A DNA stretch of 15,726 bases, from positions 1 to 15,726 of the forward strand of contig VGRA01000008.1 in NCBI GenBank assembly GCA_016875515.1, read 5' to 3'. The position numbers were made by a program, and so were the translations under genes. The notes beneath the pieces are model-generated. The model did not search any database, was not told where the DNA came from, and saw nothing but the letters and a program-made list of their open reading frames with translations. Source of the stretch: Deltaproteobacteria bacterium. Its GTDB lineage: Bacteria > Myxococcota > Myxococcia > Myxococcales > Myxococcaceae. Position 1 is the first letter of the stretch, and every line of letters starts with the position of its first letter. Below are positions 3,191 to 15,726 of this stretch, piece after piece.

Positions 3191-4135
3191 TTACGGCTCC
3201 GCGCTCCAGTGCCCCACCACGTCCCCCACCACGTTGCGCACCTGCACGTGCGTCCAATCCGGAGGCGGGCTGAAGCTGCCCGGGGCGAAGTGGGCGAGCG
3301 CCCACGCCACGGCAGCGGGGAGCGCCTCGTTGGTTCCCGGCTCCAGCTTCACCGCCAGCGCCAGCTGCCGCTCGGGCAGGGCCATGCAGAACAGCCCCAT
3401 GGCCCCCACCTTCACCGCCAGGGGCTCGGACGCGAGCGTCACCACGTCCAGGTCCAGCCGCCCCTCGCCGGAGGTGAGGGCAGGGTGGCGCGCCATGGCC
3501 CAACCGATGCGCCCGAGTACGCCATCGCGTGCGCGCATGGCCTCCGCCACCGCGAGCCAGCCGCGGGCCACCGCCTGCAGCGGTTGAACGAAGGTGGGCA
3601 CCCCGCAGCCGTCCGTGCCCGTCCCGGTCACCTCGCCGGTCCAGCCGCGCAGCCGCTCCAGGACGCGCTGCTGCAGCGGATGGGACAGCGGGCGGTAGTC
3701 CGGGCCCCAGCCCGCGTGGCGGGCCGCGGCCAGCATGAAGGCATGCTTGCCGGAGCAGTTGTTGTGCAGAGCGGTGTAGGTGCCTCCAAAGCGCACCACC
3801 GCCTCCGCAGAAGGGACGTGCACCGGCGCGTGCGCCCCGCACCGCAGCCCCGAGGCCTCCACCCCGAAGCGCGCGAGGATGGCCTCCACCAGGGCCACGT
3901 GCCGCGGCTCCGCGTTGTGCGAGGCCGCGCCCACCGCGAGCCACGCCTCGTCCACCTCCGGGAAGCCCAGCACCTCCAGCGACGTGGCCAGCTGGAAGGG
4001 CTTGGAGGCGGAGCGGAAGGTGGTGGAGAGCGCGGGGCCTGCGAGCGTCACCTCGCCGCCTGCGCGCGCACACGCCACGGTGAAGGGGTGGCGGGACTCG
4101 ACGAAGGCGCCGCGGTACTGGACGACGGTGGGCAT
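3191..4135 (-). CDS. L-asparaginase, Rhizobium etli type (Asparaginase_II family)
   Basis: This 314-residue enzyme should hydrolyse L-asparagine to aspartate and ammonia. It belongs to the Asparaginase_II family (Rhizobium etli ReAV/ReAII type), unrelated to the E. coli AnsA/AnsB fold. The catalytic S-x-x-K is present as S42-A-S-K45 (RSASKPFQ). The zinc-site residues of the ReAV structure are matched by Cys127 and Lys130 (HNNCSGKH) and Cys177 (TDGCGVP). The AASHNAEP motif is at 70-77. There is no signal peptide, so it is cytoplasmic. The ATG at 4135 is chosen because MPTVVQYRGAFVESRHP is the usual family N-terminus; the gene lies 5 bp from each neighbour. Its position after a secreted carboxypeptidase and upstream of a symporter suits amino-acid catabolism, which is an inference. 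Confidence 0.93.
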   Translation of the reverse strand: MPTVVQYRGAFVESRHPFTVACARAGGEVTLAGPALSTTFRSASKPFQLATSLEVLGFPEVDEAWLAVGAASHNAEPRHVALVEAILARFGVEASGLRCGAHAPVHVPSAEAVVRFGGTYTALHNNCSGKHAFMLAAARHAGWGPDYRPLSHPLQQRVLERLRGWTGEVTGTGTDGCGVPTFVQPLQAVARGWLAVAEAMRARDGVLGRIGWAMARHPALTSGEGRLDLDVVTLASEPLAVKVGAMGLFCMALPERQLALAVKLEPGTNEALPAAVAWALAHFAPGSFSPPPDWTHVQVRNVVGDVVGHWSAEP

Positions 4136-9074: not shown

Positions 9075-10303
9075 TAGGCGCCAGCTCTCCACACCCTCCG
9101 CTGCGCCGCGGCCTGCGCCTCGAACCACGCCTCCCCCTGGTGCAGCACCGTCCCGCCACGTGAGGCCACCTGCGCTGCAATGGCCCTGCCCGGCTCGCCG
9201 TAGGCGATGACGGCCACCTGCGCGCCCTCCAGGCGAAGCCCCTCGGGCGGCGCCAGCTCCTCTGGCCAGGTCCAGATGCAGGTCCCCTCCACCCGGGTCC
9301 CGGCCAAATCTGCCCGCCGCCGCATCCGCAACACCACGCCCAGGCGGCCGGCCGCGGCTAGCAGGGCGGGCGCCACCCCTCCAGCGCCCAGCACCGTCAC
9401 CTCGCGCGCCGCCAGCGCGCGCAGGGTGGCCTCTGCCCCGTCCACGTCCGTGTTCGCCCCGCCCCATCCGGTCCCTTGCCGGTAGAGGGTGTTCACCGCG
9501 TCCATCCCCGCGCCCACCCGGGCGGCCACCGCCCGCTTGAACGGCCGCGTGACGGCGAAGCCGCGGTAGTGCGGGTGCAGGGCCTCCAGCAGCCCCGCCA
9601 CGTCCGCGTCCGGCGGGAGGTCAATCCGGTCGAATGGGGCACGGTGCACGGCGGGCGAGCGGGAGTGCCCGATGTGGGTGCCGAGGATGCCCAGCCGCGG
9701 CGTGCCCGCGGGGGCCGTGGCCGCCCGGCGCGCGTCTGCCAGCAGCCGCTGCCCCGCTGCCGCGGCCCAGTCCCCGTCCAGGGCGCAGTAGTCCAGCGCG
9801 TTGCGCTCGGCGAGCACCGCGCGGAAGGGCAGCGCCAGCGGCCCCGTGGCGAGCACCGTGGCGCCCACCCCCAGCCCCGCCTGCACCTCCAGCAGCCGCC
9901 ACCCGCCTGTGGGCGTCCCCAGCGGCTCCACGTGCTTGCGCGCCGCGCCCGCCTCTGCGCCCCGCCACAGCGCCACCGCCTCGTCCACGCCCAGCGGCCG
10001 CTCCGCGTGGAAGGACCGGAGCAGCCGGGACGCCTCTACCGGGGAGGGCTCCCCGAGCGGGATGTCCACCCAGCGCGCGGCGTCCACCCAGCTGCGGGCC
10101 AGCGGCCTGCCCCGCCGGGAAACAACGAGGGGCAGCCGCTGCGCGAGCGCAGCCGGGGCCACGTCCGCGTCCGCGTACAGGTCGTTGCGGAGCTCCAGCA
10201 GCGCCGCCCCGGCCGCGCGCGCCCGCTCGCCAAAGGCCTGCTGCCCGGCGGTGGACAGCCCGGGGGGCAGGGTGACGACGTGGGCGGCGGAAGGCGGGGA
10301 CAT
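9074..10303 (-). CDS. aroE: AroDE: shikimate dehydrogenase fused to a type I 3-dehydroquinate dehydratase-like domain
   Basis: This 409-residue protein has two parts. Residues 1-195 resemble type I dehydroquinase (3-dehydroquinate to 3-dehydroshikimate). E37-L-R39, H99 (SFHAER), candidate Schiff-base K123 (RKHVEP), R161 and Q185 (AAAGQ) align with known active-site residues. The EGG loop is missing, the SAPGQ loop has Ala for Ser, and the segment between the second and third strands is shortened. Residues 203-409 are shikimate dehydrogenase (3-dehydroshikimate to shikimate with NADPH): G-x-x-G...HSRSP (213-217), catalytic K256 (TRPFK), AVNTL (269-273), NTD286 and the nucleotide loop GAGGVA (306-311). 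The AroE half is confident; whether the AroD half is active is open. The gene diverges from aroC, with 31 bp between the starts. Confidence 0.9.
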   Translation of the reverse strand: MSPPSAAHVVTLPPGLSTAGQQAFGERARAAGAALLELRNDLYADADVAPAALAQRLPLVVSRRGRPLARSWVDAARWVDIPLGEPSPVEASRLLRSFHAERPLGVDEAVALWRGAEAGAARKHVEPLGTPTGGWRLLEVQAGLGVGATVLATGPLALPFRAVLAERNALDYCALDGDWAAAAGQRLLADARRAATAPAGTPRLGILGTHIGHSRSPAVHRAPFDRIDLPPDADVAGLLEALHPHYRGFAVTRPFKRAVAARVGAGMDAVNTLYRQGTGWGGANTDVDGAEATLRALAAREVTVLGAGGVAPALLAAAGRLGVVLRMRRRADLAGTRVEGTCIWTWPEELAPPEGLRLEGAQVAVIAYGEPGRAIAAQVASRGGTVLHQGEAWFEAQAAAQRRVWRAGA

Positions 10304-10334
10304 GTGCGGGGGGGATGTTATGCCTGCTGCCGGG

Positions 10335-11354
10335 ATGAATACCTTCGGAACGTTGTTCCGCCTCACCTCCTTCGGGGAGAGCCACGGCCCCGCGCTCGGC
10401 GCCGTGGTGGACGGCTGCCCGGCCGGCGTGCTGCTCACGGCGGAGGTGCTGCAGGCGGCGCTGGACCGCCGGCGCCCGGGACAGTCCGCGCTCACCACCG
10501 CGCGGGCAGAAGCAGACCGGGTGGAGTTGCTCTCCGGCGTGTACGAGGACAAGACGCTCGGGACCCCCATTGCCGCGCTGGTCCGCAACCAGGACGCGCG
10601 GTCCGCGGACTACGAGCGGCTGCGGCACGAGGACCGCCCCGGCCATGCCGACGCCGCGTGGCGCGCCCGCTTCAAGCACCGGGACCACCGGGGCGGCGGC
10701 CGCACCAGCGCGCGGGAGACGCTCTCGCGGGTTCTCGGTGGCGCCGTGGCCGAGGCGCTGCTGCGCCGCGAGCTGCCCCAGGTGCGGGTGGTGGGCTGGG
10801 TGTCCCAGGTGGGCGCCCTGAAGGCGCAGCACCCGGTATTGGGGCTCACCCGCGAGGCGGTGGACGGACACCCCACGCGCTGCCCGGACCCGGCCGCGGC
10901 CGCGCGCATGGAGGCGGACATCCTCGCGGCCAAGGAGGCGGGGGACTCGCTCGGGGGCACGGTGGACGTGCGCATCGAGGGGCTCCCGGTGGGGCTGGGG
11001 GAGCCGGTCTTCGGCAAGCTGAAGGCGCAGCTGGCCTCCGCGCTGGGCAGCGTCAACGCGGTGAGCGGCGTCACCTGGGGCGCGCACGACTTCGCGGACG
11101 CGGTGGCGCTCCCGGGCAGCGCCTTCCACGCGCGGCGGGACGTGTACGGCGGCATCCAGGGCGGCCTGTCCAGCGGCGAGCCGGTGCTGCTGCGCACCTG
11201 GTTCAAGCCTGTCTCGACGCTGGGGGCGCACGCGAAGGGCGGGCGGCACGACCCGTGCGTCCTCCCCCGCGCCGTCCCGGTGCTGGAGGCCATGGCGTCC
11301 CTGGTGCTGGCGGACGCGTGGCTCCACTTCCTCGCCTTTCCCCACCGCCCATGA
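10335..11354 (+). CDS. aroC: Chorismate synthase
   Basis: This 339-residue enzyme converts EPSP to chorismate, using reduced FMN, in the last shikimate-pathway step. The N-terminus MNTFGTLFRLTSFGESHG is canonical and holds catalytic His17. RRRPGQ (45-50), RPGH104AD, and HRDHRGGGRTSARET (115-129) are the substrate- and flavin-binding signatures, and GGIQGG and GGRHDPC occur near the C-terminus. It is slightly shorter than the usual roughly 360 residues. ATG 10335 is chosen because homologues start MNTFG; an in-frame ATG at 10320 (adding MPAAG) lies 5 bp after a seven-G run and cannot be excluded. Its stop overlaps the aroB start (ATGA). Confidence 0.96.
   Translation: MNTFGTLFRLTSFGESHGPALGAVVDGCPAGVLLTAEVLQAALDRRRPGQSALTTARAEADRVELLSGVYEDKTLGTPIAALVRNQDARSADYERLRHEDRPGHADAAWRARFKHRDHRGGGRTSARETLSRVLGGAVAEALLRRELPQVRVVGWVSQVGALKAQHPVLGLTREAVDGHPTRCPDPAAAARMEADILAAKEAGDSLGGTVDVRIEGLPVGLGEPVFGKLKAQLASALGSVNAVSGVTWGAHDFADAVALPGSAFHARRDVYGGIQGGLSSGEPVLLRTWFKPVSTLGAHAKGGRHDPCVLPRAVPVLEAMASLVLADAWLHFLAFPHRP
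10346..10360. promoter_or_regulatory. Inverted repeat at the aroDE/aroC divergent start region
   Basis: CGGAAC-GTT-GTTCCG is a perfect 6-bp inverted repeat with a 3-bp centre, just inside aroC. The gap between the two divergent genes is only 31 bp, so any shared operator would have to lie inside a coding end like this. It overlaps codons 4-9 of aroC and may be chance; no regulator can be named. Confidence 0.2.
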
Positions 11355-12397
11355 ACGCACCCGGCGCCTTCACCGCCCCCGCCGGCCGGTGGGGCCCTTT
11401 CGAGGAGCTGTGCCGGACGCTCCCGTCCGGCTGCTTCGTGCTGGTGGACGCGCGCGTGCTGCGCCTGCACCCCGCGGTGGGCCGCGCGCTGGCGCGCCGT
11501 GCACCCCTGGGAATGCTGGCCGTGAAGGCGGGCGAGGGGGCCAAGTCCTTCCGCACGCTGGAGAAGGTGCTCAGGGCCATGGCGGCGCTGCCCCGCGCGG
11601 GGACGCTGGTGGCAGTGGGAGGCGGGACGGTGGGGGACCTCGCCGCGGTGGCAGCGCACCTGCACCGGCGTGGAACGAACTTGCTGCACGTCCCCACCAC
11701 GCTGCTGGCCGCGGTGGACAGCTCGCTCGGCGGCAAGGGGGCGCTCAACCTGGAGGGGGCCAAGAACGCCGTGGGCGTCTTCCACTCCGCTGCCTCGTGC
11801 TGGCTGTGTCCGGAGCTGTTCGAGACGCTCTCTCCGGCCCAGCGGCGCGAGGGCCGCGTGGAGGCGTGGAAGATGGTGCTGACGCTCGCCGCGCCGCGCT
11901 GGGAGGCGTGGGCCGCTGCCGCCCCGTCGGACGAGGAGGCCATCCGCGAGGGGCGCGCGCTCAAGGCGGCGGTGTGCGCGGAGGACCCCTACGAGCGGCT
12001 CGGGCGCCGGGCGGTGCTCAACTTCGGCCACACCTTCGGCCACGTCCTGGAGTCGCACTCCGGCTACCGGCTGCGCCACGGCGAGGCGGTGGGGCTGGGG
12101 ATGCTCTGCGCGCTGGACGTGGGGCGCGCGCTGGCAGTCACGCCGGCGAAGGTGGCGCGCGAGGTGGAGGCGGTGCTCTTGCAGCGGGCCGAGGTGCAGG
12201 GCCGGGCGCAGCTGGCGCGCTGGCTGGGCAGCGCCCGGCAGGTGGGAAAGCTGCTCGCCGTGGACAAGAAGGCCGAGCGCCCCGGCGAGGTGCGCATGGT
12301 GCTGCTCGAGCGCCCCGGAGCCACGCGCGCAGTGGCCGTGCCGGCCGAGGCGTGGCGGCACCTGCTCCGGGCCTGGAAGGCGGGCAGGCGCCCGTGA
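11351..12397 (+). CDS. aroB: 3-dehydroquinate synthase
   Basis: This 348-residue NAD+- and zinc-dependent enzyme converts DAHP to 3-dehydroquinate in the cytoplasm. The glycine-rich NAD site VAVGGGTVGDLAA covers 87-99, and VPTTLLAAVDSSLGGKGALN (114-133) is the central family motif. The zinc ligands are Glu171 (GRVEAWK), His227 (NFGHTFGH) and His243 (LRHGEAVGLGM); catalytic lysines occur at K129 and K174. The start ATG overlaps the aroC stop by 4 bp and its own stop overlaps the GTG start of aroA, so the three genes are translationally coupled. The N-terminal part before residue 55 is somewhat shortened. Confidence 0.96.
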   Translation: MNAPGAFTAPAGRWGPFEELCRTLPSGCFVLVDARVLRLHPAVGRALARRAPLGMLAVKAGEGAKSFRTLEKVLRAMAALPRAGTLVAVGGGTVGDLAAVAAHLHRRGTNLLHVPTTLLAAVDSSLGGKGALNLEGAKNAVGVFHSAASCWLCPELFETLSPAQRREGRVEAWKMVLTLAAPRWEAWAAAAPSDEEAIREGRALKAAVCAEDPYERLGRRAVLNFGHTFGHVLESHSGYRLRHGEAVGLGMLCALDVGRALAVTPAKVAREVEAVLLQRAEVQGRAQLARWLGSARQVGKLLAVDKKAERPGEVRMVLLERPGATRAVAVPAEAWRHLLRAWKAGRRP

Positions 12398-13665
12398 CCG
12401 GCGCCGTCACCGTGACGCCCGGGCCGCTGCGCCCGGTGCGGCTCGTCCCGCCACCGTCCAAGTCCGATGCACAGCGGGCGCTGGTGCTCTCCCACGTGCT
12501 GGACCAGCCCGCCCTGCGCGCGTTCGCGGAGGACGGAGAACCGCGGCCCACCGACGTGCAGGTGATGGCTGCGGGCCTCTCCGCGCTGCGCCGCGCGGCC
12601 TCCACGGGCGAGGCGGTGGAGGTGGACTGCCGAGACGGCGGGGCCCCCTTCCGGCTGCTGCTGGGCCAGGCGGCGGTGACGCCCGGGGCCCGCGTCTGCT
12701 TCACCGGTACCCCGCGGCTCGGCGAGCGGCCCCACGGCGCGCTCGTCCAGGCGCTCCGGGACGCGCTCGGCCCCTCGGGGCTGCACCTCGAGCAGGGCAA
12801 CCCGTGGCCGCTCTCCGTGCTCGGTGCCGCGCAGGCTGCGCCCGTGCCCGTCCTGCGGGTGGACGCCCGCGGGAGCAGCCAGTTCCCCAGCAGCCTCCTG
12901 CTCGCCGCGGCGGCGCTGGTGCTGCGCGAGCGCAGGCCATGGACGGTGTCCCTCGCAGGTGGGCTCGCGAGCGCGGGCTACCTGGAGCTCACTGTCCACT
13001 GGCTCCGCCGGTGTGGCTTCCTCGTGAGCAAAGGGGAAGGGCGCTGGACGGTGGAGGGCCACGCCCCTCCGGCCGCGTGGCCTGCCGTCCCCGGGGACTG
13101 GTCCTCGCTCGGCTACCTGCTGCTGCTCGCGTGGCGCAGTGGGGGCCGGGCCGCGCGGGTGGACCTGCAGGCGCCCCATCCAGACCGGGCCGTGGTGCGC
13201 GTGCTGCGCGGGCTGGGGCTCCGCGTGGAGGTGGACCCGCAGGGCGAGGCCACCGTGCAAGGACGTGCAACGTCCGGACTGGACGCGGACGGCGCGGAGT
13301 GCCCGGACCTCCTGCCCACGCTGGGGGCGCTCGCCTGCGTGCTGCCGGGACCCAGCACGCTGCGGCACGTCTCCATCCTGCGGGCCAAGGAGAGCGACCG
13401 GCTGGAGGCGCTCTCGGACCTGGTGCGCGCCGCGGGGGGTACGCCCGTGCTCGAGGGGGACACGCTGCACGTGGTGCCGCCAGAGGCGGTCCGCCCCTTC
13501 GCGTTCGACGCGCGCGGGGACCACCGCATGGCCATGTCCGCGGCCACGCTCGCGGTGCTGGGCGGCGTGGAGGTGGAGCTCCGCGCGGCGCACGGTGTGG
13601 ACAAGAGCTTCCCCGGTTTCTTCGCGCAGCTGGCGGGGCTGGGCTGCGCGATGCGCGGACCCTGA
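12394..13665 (+). CDS. aroA: 5-enolpyruvylshikimate-3-phosphate synthase
   Basis: This 423-residue enzyme joins phosphoenolpyruvate to shikimate-3-phosphate. Visible motifs are PPS-K23-S-D-A-Q-R28 (shikimate-3-phosphate site), DGGAPFR87 (PEP loop, canonical NAGTAMR in E. coli), SSQFPSSLLLAA (161-172), DWSSLGY (235-241), catalytic D305 (ECPDLLPTL), RAKE333SDR336L, GDHRMAM (375-381) and DKSFPGFF (403-410). Within the PEP loop, Gly96 of E. coli is kept as Gly83, but Thr97 is Ala and Ala98 is Pro. It starts at GTG, overlapping the aroB stop by 4 bp, and is the last gene of the operon. The next gene comes in from the opposite strand. Confidence 0.95.
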   Translation: MTGAVTVTPGPLRPVRLVPPPSKSDAQRALVLSHVLDQPALRAFAEDGEPRPTDVQVMAAGLSALRRAASTGEAVEVDCRDGGAPFRLLLGQAAVTPGARVCFTGTPRLGERPHGALVQALRDALGPSGLHLEQGNPWPLSVLGAAQAAPVPVLRVDARGSSQFPSSLLLAAAALVLRERRPWTVSLAGGLASAGYLELTVHWLRRCGFLVSKGEGRWTVEGHAPPAAWPAVPGDWSSLGYLLLLAWRSGGRAARVDLQAPHPDRAVVRVLRGLGLRVEVDPQGEATVQGRATSGLDADGAECPDLLPTLGALACVLPGPSTLRHVSILRAKESDRLEALSDLVRAAGGTPVLEGDTLHVVPPEAVRPFAFDARGDHRMAMSAATLAVLGGVEVELRAAHGVDKSFPGFFAQLAGLGCAMRGP

Positions 13666-14415: not shown

Positions 14416-14529
14416 CTGCCCAGCGGAACGGGTTGAGGTGCCGGGTGCGCTGCGGCTGGGCCCCCACTCCGGCGGCCGGCGTGATGACGGTTGGGCCGGT
14501 GTGAGGCGGGCAGTCCAACTGCGTGGGCG

Positions 14530-14540
14530 AAGGGAAGGGG
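14530..14540 (+). promoter_or_regulatory. Shine-Dalgarno site for the small lipoprotein
   Basis: AAGGGAAGGGG ends 4 bases before ATG 14545. It supports that start rather than the in-frame ATG at 14491, and places the hydrophobic signal segment at the N-terminus. Confidence 0.6.
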
Positions 14541-14544
14541 CCAC

Positions 14545-14826
14545 ATGAAGCGAGGCGTGACGCGTGGGCTGCTGTGGACGGGGGTGACGTTGGCGACGGT
14601 GGGCCTGGCAGCCTGCAAGTCCGCCAACCAGCAGGGCGGCACGGGCGGCAGCGGGCAGCAGCGGGCAGCAGCCGCACGCTTCACGGCAGGAGCGGGGGCG
14701 CCCGGTCACCTGGTGGGCCGGGCGCCTCCGCCGTTTCCAGGGGGCGCGTGGCCGCCTGCGGAGAGACCAGGTCCCGCCGCAGCCCCGCTCCCACCCAGGC
14801 AGACCCCAGGCCGCGCCCGGTGTTGA
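14545..14826 (+). CDS. Small predicted lipoprotein, 3' end probably altered
   Basis: The 93-residue frame starts MKRGVTRGLLWTGVTLATVG and continues LAAC24KS: two basic residues, a hydrophobic stretch and a lipobox (V-G-L-A-A-C), so Cys24 should be lipidated and the protein anchored in the membrane. The first residues after Cys24 (KSANQQGGTGGSGQQ) are typical of a flexible small lipoprotein. After residue 39 the composition changes to Ala/Pro/Arg-rich sequence without pattern. It crosses a 10-bp tandem duplication (14651-14670) and a strong hairpin (14697-14726), which suggests that the natural stop was lost or lies elsewhere. No function can be named. Confidence 0.6.
   Translation: MKRGVTRGLLWTGVTLATVGLAACKSANQQGGTGGSGQQRAAAARFTAGAGAPGHLVGRAPPPFPGGAWPPAERPGPAAAPLPPRQTPGRARC
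14651..14670. repeat. Two tandem copies of a 10-bp unit
   Basis: GCGGGCAGCA occurs twice, exactly and head to tail, preceded by the near-copy ACGGGCGGCA at 14641-14650. The unit is not a multiple of three, so a gain or loss shifts the reading frame of the lipoprotein in which it lies. Confidence 0.8.
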
Positions 14827-14899
14827 GCGGATCGTCCCAGCCTGCAATGACGTACAACGGACGGTAGAGCGCGAATGCCGCCTCCATGCGGAGGTGCGG
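14681..14899 (-). pseudogene. Distal remnant of an MlaD-like (MCE) C-terminus, cut off by a TAG
   Basis: Immediately after the in-frame TAG at 14900-14902, the same frame continues PHLRMEAAFALYRPLYVIAG, then WDDPLN and GSAWVGAGLR. This matches the final strands of the C-terminal region seen in delta-proteobacterial and myxobacterial MlaD/MCE proteins (aG.DDPLN...s.fvGaGlrF). After GAGLR the family sequence stops (RDLVSPQAATRPLETAEAP...) and the frame crosses the 14697-14726 hairpin to a TGA at 14681, so the true 3' end is also lost. An ATG at 14887 could start a 68-residue peptide, but no ribosome binding site supports it. It is best read as pseudogene sequence continuous with the chimera upstream. 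Confidence 0.6.
14697..14726. terminator. Strong hairpin between the lipoprotein and mla remnant (bidirectional terminator candidate)
   Basis: GGCGCCCGG (14697-14705) and CCGGGCGCC (14718-14726) form a perfect 9-bp stem. The loop can pair further as CAC-CTG-GTG. On the plus strand TCCGCCGTTTCC follows. It sits where the lipoprotein transcript (+) and the mla transcript (-) converge. Confidence 0.5.
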
Positions 14900-15676
14900 C
14901 TACAGCTGCCCCCGCCCGAAGTCCCATGCGTCCACGCTCAGCCTCAGCCGGTCATCCCACGCGAAGGCATCCACCCCGGCCCCCAGCCAAGACTCGGTGA
15001 GCCCCGCGCGCACGGCCAGCGGCGGTAGCAGGCGGGCCCCCAGTTGGGCGGAGAAGGCCAGGGGGGCCTGGAAGTTGCGAACCACCGAGCCGTCCTCGGC
15101 CCTGTGTTCGGACTGCAGCCCGAACGACTCGCCCACCGCCTCCGAGCCCGCGGTGGGCTCGTCGAACAGCAGGATGTCCGGCTGCAGCGCAATGGCCCGC
15201 GCGAAGCCCACCCGCCGCCGCATCCCCGTGGACAGTTCCGCGGGCAGTCGCCGCGCCGCGTGGGACAGGTGCATGAGCTCCAGGCACTCCTCCACGCGCC
15301 CCTTCACCTTCCGCTCGTCCCCGTAGCGGGCCCGCCGCAGCGGGAAGGCAACGTTGTCGAAGACGTCCATGGAGTCGAACAGCGCGCCGTCCTGGAAGGC
15401 CAGGCTTAAGCGGCGCCGCAGCCGGTGCTGCTCCCGCCGCGGCGCGGCCCGGAAGTCCTGCCCTGCAACGAACACAATGCCCGCGCCCGGCCGGCGCAAC
15501 CCGATGAGGTGTTTGAGCAGCATCGTCTTGCCGCCGCCGGAGGGGCCCAGCAGCACGAGCGACTCGCCCCGGTGCAGCCGCAGGTCCACGCCGTCCGGCA
15601 CCGTGCGCGCACCGAAGGCGCGCCGCAGCCCCTGTGCCTCCAGCAGCACGCGCCCGTCGTCTGCAGGAACGTCCAT
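14900..15676 (-). CDS. Chimeric frame: truncated MlaF ABC ATPase joined in frame to an MlaD C-terminal piece (probable pseudogene)
   Basis: Residues 1-177 are an MlaF-type ATPase of the phospholipid-trafficking Mla system: Walker A GPSGGGKT (44-51), Q-loop Gln95, signature LSTGM (148-152; LSGGM expected) and Walker B ILLFDEPTAG (168-177). The D-loop and switch His that should follow are absent. From SEAVGESFGLQSE (178 on) the sequence is unrelated to ATPases: AFSAQLGARLLPPLAVRAGL, ESWLGAGVDAFAWDD, LSVDAWDFGRGQ. It resembles the C-terminal region of MCE/MlaD proteins, normally encoded by the next gene. The rest of mlaF and the start of mlaD, including the MCE domain, are therefore deleted. A TAG ends the frame inside the MlaD part. 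The start ATG lies 11 bp after the mlaE end. ATP hydrolysis is unlikely without the missing elements. Confidence 0.75.
   Translation of the reverse strand: MDVPADDGRVLLEAQGLRRAFGARTVPDGVDLRLHRGESLVLLGPSGGGKTMLLKHLIGLRRPGAGIVFVAGQDFRAAPRREQHRLRRRLSLAFQDGALFDSMDVFDNVAFPLRRARYGDERKVKGRVEECLELMHLSHAARRLPAELSTGMRRRVGFARAIALQPDILLFDEPTAGSEAVGESFGLQSEHRAEDGSVVRNFQAPLAFSAQLGARLLPPLAVRAGLTESWLGAGVDAFAWDDRLRLSVDAWDFGRGQL
15131..15158. repeat. Inverted repeat bracketing the mlaF/mlaD deletion junction
   Basis: GCCCACCGC (15131-15139) and GCGGTGGGC (15150-15158) are perfect 9-bp inverted copies separated by 10 bases. The change from ATPase to MlaD-like sequence falls within or beside this loop, a position typical for replication-slippage or hairpin-assisted deletions. 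Confidence 0.7.
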
Positions 15677-15687
15677 GGCCCGCGGCC

Positions 15688-15726
15688 TCAGAACATCATC
15701 CGGCTGAGGAAGAAGTCTTAGACGAT
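15688..15726 (-). pseudogene. C-terminal end of an MlaE-like permease with an in-frame TAA (partial)
   Basis: At the right edge, the minus-strand frame reads IV, then TAA, then DFFLSRMMF and TGA, 11 bp before the mlaF start. DFFLSRMMF aligns with the end of MlaE permeases (E. coli LDFVLTALMFGN; others SDFFLTKLLF), and mlaE-mlaF-mlaD is the usual gene order. The TAA takes the place of the residue before DFF (often Ser), where a single base change from TCA would create it. Only five codons before the TAA or in it are visible, so the disrupted-gene reading is tentative. Confidence 0.45.

Follow-up and report, generated by a model that had tools for sequence, protein, structure and literature searches.

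The window analyzed here, which is the complete contig C8 (15,726 bases) of a draft genome (G000), ends in an open frame of 258 codons that joins the front part of an MlaF-like ATPase to an internal fragment of a long MlaD/MCE protein (Table 1). This frame is very probably a pseudogene, the remnant that a recent deletion left of an accessory trans-envelope mlaEFD operon. Two disabling lesions, a deletion and a premature TAG, lie about 240 bases apart, which points to a pseudogene, and intact homologues of the affected genes exist elsewhere, so that the loss is derived in this lineage, as expected of a deletion pseudogene. Any decay would be recent, because the composition is still coding-like and the main ATPase motifs are kept.

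Table 1. Features of the chimeric locus in the window and of the intact operon (locus L058) in the related genome G040
Feature	Position	Strand	Basis or remark
Window: open frame of 258 codons	14900-15676	(-)	Open-reading-frame check of the window
Window: end of mlaE (last codons), truncated where the contig stops	15688..15726	(-)	IV(stop)DFFLSRMMF(stop) compared with the G040 MlaE end IVDFFLSKLLFVL(stop)
Window: in-frame TAA in the mlaE remnant, few codons before the natural stop	15718-15720	(-)	Translation compared with G040 MlaE
Window: MlaF-like ATPase part without its last third (codons 1-177, from Walker A to Walker B)	15146..15676	(-)	ABC_tran match and alignments
Window: junction codon S178, between DEPTAG and EAVGE	15143..15145	(-)	Alignments to relatives
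Window: codons 179-258, a piece of a long MlaD/MCE protein from within its strand-rich C-terminal domain	14903..15142	(-)	Corresponds to residues 329-408 of P0128 (intact, 473 aa)
Window: premature TAG; sense codon here in relatives	14900..14902	(-)	Alignment to MCE relatives
Window: remaining MCE frame behind the TAG, to the TGA at 14681-14683	14681..14899	(-)	MCE similarity to about 14744
G040: MlaE permease	9118-9945		PF02405
G040: ATPase	9955-10773		Open, full-length
G040: MCE protein	10770-12119		PF02470; intact, 449 aa

The Chimeric Frame and Its ATPase Half

The initial annotation had reported a 258-codon frame at this place on the reverse strand, and it is present exactly as described. 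Its GC contents at codon positions 1, 2, and 3 are 0.79, 0.49, and 0.89, a coding-like pattern; third-position GC was 0.93-0.96 in the four other frames that passed the filter. The contig stops at position 15,726 and thereby leaves no more of the upstream mlaE than its last codons.

Codons 29-176 match the Pfam ABC_tran profile to its end (137/137, E = 8e-30). The best NCBIfam model for this half was MlaF (NF008809, E = 2.5e-38). Its cut-off of 441 bits was reached neither by the chimera (131.9 bits) nor by the intact ATPases P0003 (178.1 bits) and that of G040 (186.1 bits). As even the intact P0003 scores far below the cut-off, "MlaF-like" is the safe name. The half is 85% identical to residues 2-181 of P0003 and 77% identical to P0004, both of them intact proteins of 265 aa. 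In the alignment, GPSGGGKT, Q95, LSTGM, and ILLFDEP are all retained; apart from Q95, these are the stretches that we take to be Walker A, signature, and Walker B. Similarity to the ATPase stops at DEPTAG, and the D-loop, the switch histidine, and the C-terminal subdomain are absent, whereas intact P0003 carries 88 more residues past this point, LDPV and TTHD included. The alignment to P0003 thus bears out what had been read from the letters, namely a cut right after Walker B and the loss of the D-loop, the switch histidine, and the C-terminal part of the ATPase.

Departures from conserved positions were counted over codons 10-178 against 119 of the 120 listed matches of the ATPase search, P0002 (see below) being left out. 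At the 90% conservation level the chimera departs at 14 of 90 positions (maximum among the 119 relatives, 13; P0003, 9; P0004, 11), at the 95% level at 7 of 77, a count that one of the 119 relatives also reaches, and at the 98% level at 5 of 63, where the maximum among the other relatives is 3. Many of the changes are common to P0003, and one is the junction codon itself, which makes the count a weak measure; it fits, weakly, a mild loss of constraint.

The MCE Half and the Premature Stop

When read through the stop, the part behind the junction is 85% identical to P0128, 82% to P0129, and 71-73% to P0130-P0132, and together with the stretch behind the stop it matches MCE relatives at E = 5.1e-66, far beyond chance. 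P0128-P0132 also carry PF02470 (MlaD). In the large protein collection the label PF27164 stands on P0002 and on all 13 MCE relatives returned (P0122-P0134); in the Pfam copy that was searched, this part of the chimera had no match at E 0.01, PF27164 included. A search of the chimera with PF02470 gave no match. The MCE domain is absent, and the equivalent of P0128 residues 1-328, the N-terminal membrane anchor included, is missing, in agreement with the initial annotation. What is kept is only a fragment of the C-terminal barrel-type domain (PF27164 in the collection labels). Its assignment to the C-terminal region of MlaD holds insofar as it belongs to the C-terminal domain of an MCE protein; it stems from the interior of that domain and not from its end. 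Aligned separately, each half is 85% identical over the shared part to one intact protein, and the two proteins, P0003 and P0128, are separate.

The end of the open frame is not a natural one. The frame behind the TAG is similar to P0128 up to residue 461 of the latter, about 52 codons past the TAG, and because MCE similarity continues in frame behind it, the TAG must be premature. A short lipoprotein-like frame (VGLAACKSANQQ) occupies positions 14491-14826 of the forward strand, opposed to and overlapping the tail of the MCE remnant.

For P0128, structure prediction gave an N-terminal helix (residues 3-29), a strand-rich MCE domain (36-127), long helices (131-281), and 12 strand elements (294-454); the model was built from 13 sequences (mean pLDDT 60.3, pTM 0.42), and its domain boundaries are of moderate confidence. 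By this model, what the window fragment would keep of the C-terminal domain are two short strands and about four long ones in full. A Foldseek search of the P0128 model against the PDB returned Mce1, MlaD, and LetAB chains and no membrane barrel among the 50 matches listed, so that the barrel reading rests on the predicted strands together with a report on Veillonella parvula MlaD (PMC10665443). The model of the chimera itself (mean pLDDT 43.5, residues 165-258 below 50), derived from a shallow mixed alignment, is too uncertain for use.

The Deletion and Its Probable Origin

Compared with intact relatives, the ATPase part lacks 88 residues and the MCE part 328, corresponding to about 1.25 kb if the two genes overlapped as they do in G040. 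Alignments place the junction at DEPTAG and EAVGE with the single codon S178 between them. At this site the ATPase of relatives has GLDPV and their MCE protein RLEAV, and since these similar stretches stand at the two ends of the deletion, an origin from short direct repeats is likely. As far as protein alignments can indicate, a deletion between such repeats, by recombination or slippage, is likely to be the simplest origin. By the comparison with intact relatives, a single deletion of about 1.25 kb took the final third of the ATPase gene together with the initial two thirds of the MCE gene. The ancestor would have been an mlaE-mlaF-mlaD operon whose long trans-envelope MlaD consisted of an anchor, an MCE domain, a helical region, and a C-terminal beta-barrel. 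The premature stop in addition cuts the barrel part.

Because the ATPase and MCE genes of G040 are in different reading frames, the chance that a joined frame stays open is about one in three, and the openness of the frame says nothing for a function. The product, if translated, would consist of an ATPase fragment that lacks D-loop and switch histidine, fused to a piece of barrel without an anchor. An ATPase that lacks both of these elements is not expected to cycle, and the chimeric protein is expected to be inactive.

A Second Copy and the Search for the Architecture

The same chimera occurs on another contig of 7854 bases. Its product, P0002, is identical to that of the window at 256 of 258 residues and ends at the same residue; both lesions, the junction and the stop, are shared. 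The only differences are two adjacent residues (HA vs. LP in the LSHAARR stretch), which hint at strain variation or at a local sequence error. P0002 may come from the same sample as the window.

The initial annotation had left open whether the locus is decaying, a hybrid of new function exists, or the assembly has collapsed, and had regarded conservation of the architecture in many genomes as the mark of a real family. Such conservation was not seen. Among the 120 matches listed (of 5692) in the ATPase search and the 8 matches of the C-terminal part, the two-domain join was found only in P0002, a single further cluster representative. A search of genome contigs with the whole chimera returned 17 loci of 29-49% identity and no close relative. 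Among the open-licence PMC papers listed, none describes an MlaF-MlaD fusion in its title or the opening of its abstract.

A working hybrid, in which the ATPase fragment is tethered to the barrel fragment and has a new role, e.g. a regulatory or dominant-negative one, appears very improbable. In its favor are the open frame of 258 codons, the retention of Walker A, signature, and Walker B, and the presence of the chimera on two contigs, but neither the D-loop nor the switch histidine is there, the barrel piece comprises about four complete long strands and no anchor, no conserved family appears among the matches listed, and the low-confidence model adds a weak point in the same direction. We likewise give hardly any credence to the more specific idea that more than one strain produces and retains the 258-aa hybrid as a truncated MlaF-like protein which still binds nucleotide and damps or titrates another Mla-type transporter of the cell; were it true, an ATPase fragment would have turned regulator. 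Decay is the best supported of the three readings, given the separate intact relatives, the premature TAG, and the absence of any other listed homologue built in this way.

Draft Quality and the Missing DNA

If the chimera were an assembly artefact, the true genome would hold intact mlaF and MCE genes, and collapse or strain mixing would have taken place at the end of a low-coverage contig. Circumstances that favor this explanation are the nature of the draft (3.92 Mb in 904 contigs, 87% complete, 3.4% contamination), the contig end only 50 bases from the frame, the TAA in mlaE 6-8 bases from that end, which may itself be an assembly-end error, the frame breaks in other genes described below, and the possible common sample of P0002. 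Against it stands the second contig with the same junction and stop and two different residues, which makes a collapse somewhat less likely even though the sample may be shared. Moreover, searches of the draft contigs found the missing parts on none of them at close identity, a collapse alone leaves the premature TAG unexplained, and the junction is a clean one, situated where the two genes resemble each other, although this is compatible with either cause. On balance we consider an artefact unlikely, but it is the main rival explanation.

The missing ATPase tail, when searched for in the draft, had its best match on contig C404 (38%, E = 4e-8), followed by 43% over 45 residues on C113 (E = 0.06), and P0128 matched outside the window only C404, at 33% and 24%. 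These matches are paralogues. A PF02470 search of the draft found one other MCE domain, on C250, and a PF02405 search two permeases, both on C67. As the draft is incomplete, absence from its contigs is no proof, and the missing stretches may belong to genomic DNA that escaped assembly.

The other mlaF/MCE locus of the draft (L059, C404, positions 1461-2946 and 3238-3240, reverse strand), related to a locus on C120 of G040, also looks damaged. In YDEPTTG of the G040 ATPase the Walker B glutamate is present, whereas the draft has YDGPTTG, and near its start the MCE gene matches that of G040 in three different frames. This damage may reflect decay of both Mla loci or sequence error.

Frame changes and stops were surveyed in 22 sequences of the draft (325,022 bases) against 428 G040 proteins, with weaker matches than a top match of at least 120 bits and 42% identity being dropped. 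A lesion was seen at 2 of the 24 places compared, one of them the MCE gene on C404; four of the 24 places were on C404, a contig included because of its mla genes, and another three were in the window. The 20 contigs that entered only through the survey contributed 17 places on 5 contigs, with 1 flagged. The survey is not sensitive, since the chimera itself went unflagged. On contig C2 (L088, about 9994-11034, reverse strand), a gene like an 845-aa G040 protein aligns in two frames and possibly contains a frame break. The two other window genes compared with G040 were each in a single frame. At E 1e-8, Pfam domains were found in eight of the 10 other long window frames, with nearly full profile coverage in six, and two frames have none at this threshold; this counts in favor of the pseudogene reading. 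Consecutive genes for chorismate synthase, 3-dehydroquinate synthase, and EPSP synthase form a shikimate-pathway cluster at 9801-13665 on the forward strand of the window.

Distribution in the Family and Comparison with Known Mla Systems

Searched with P0003, 89 of 96 genomes of the family had some match at E 1e-60, mostly of 41-52% identity among the matches listed. Only G000, the draft itself (4e-96), and G040 (3e-89) stand out, the next match being at 2e-71, and at this similarity the accessory locus is therefore rare in the family. A decay shared with G040 was considered, two TGA and one TAG lying inside its match, and was dropped; these stops lie behind the natural end of the intact 449-aa gene. 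The MCE protein of G040 is identical (100%) to the public record P0122, named "MCE family protein", and a search with it gave 6 matches, the closest relatives not being among them.

The case illustrates how a chimeric frame that is open can be mistaken for a new fusion protein when it is met in a draft genome. Most likely the present one is ordinary gene decay and not a new protein, and it documents that an accessory trans-envelope Mla operon, which stands out in only 2 of the 96 family genomes searched at this similarity, has been lost.

Compared with MlaF of the MlaFEDB phospholipid transporter (NF008809), the ATPase half is alike in its best NCBIfam match and in the retained Walker A, signature, and Walker B, and unlike it in ending after DEPTAG, with the D-loop, the switch histidine, and the C-terminal part gone and the score under the cut-off. 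The open operon of G040 (9118-12119), a genome of the same family, has the gene order of the window, i.e. mlaE, ATPase, and MCE protein, and is 55% identical to the ATPase part and 45% to the C-terminal part; its three genes are full-length, whereas the window is without about 1.25 kb and has a stop inside the MCE part. The long MlaD described for V. parvula has a membrane domain and an MCE domain, then a helical stretch of about 150 residues, and a barrel of ten strands (PMC10665443). The window fragment differs from it in having no anchor, MCE domain, or helical region and an incomplete barrel. The intact relative P0128 shares the predicted domain order with this trans-envelope MlaD, and the overlapping ends of V. 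parvula mlaF and mlaD (PMC10665443) are paralleled by the overlap of 4 bases between the mlaF and MCE genes of G040.
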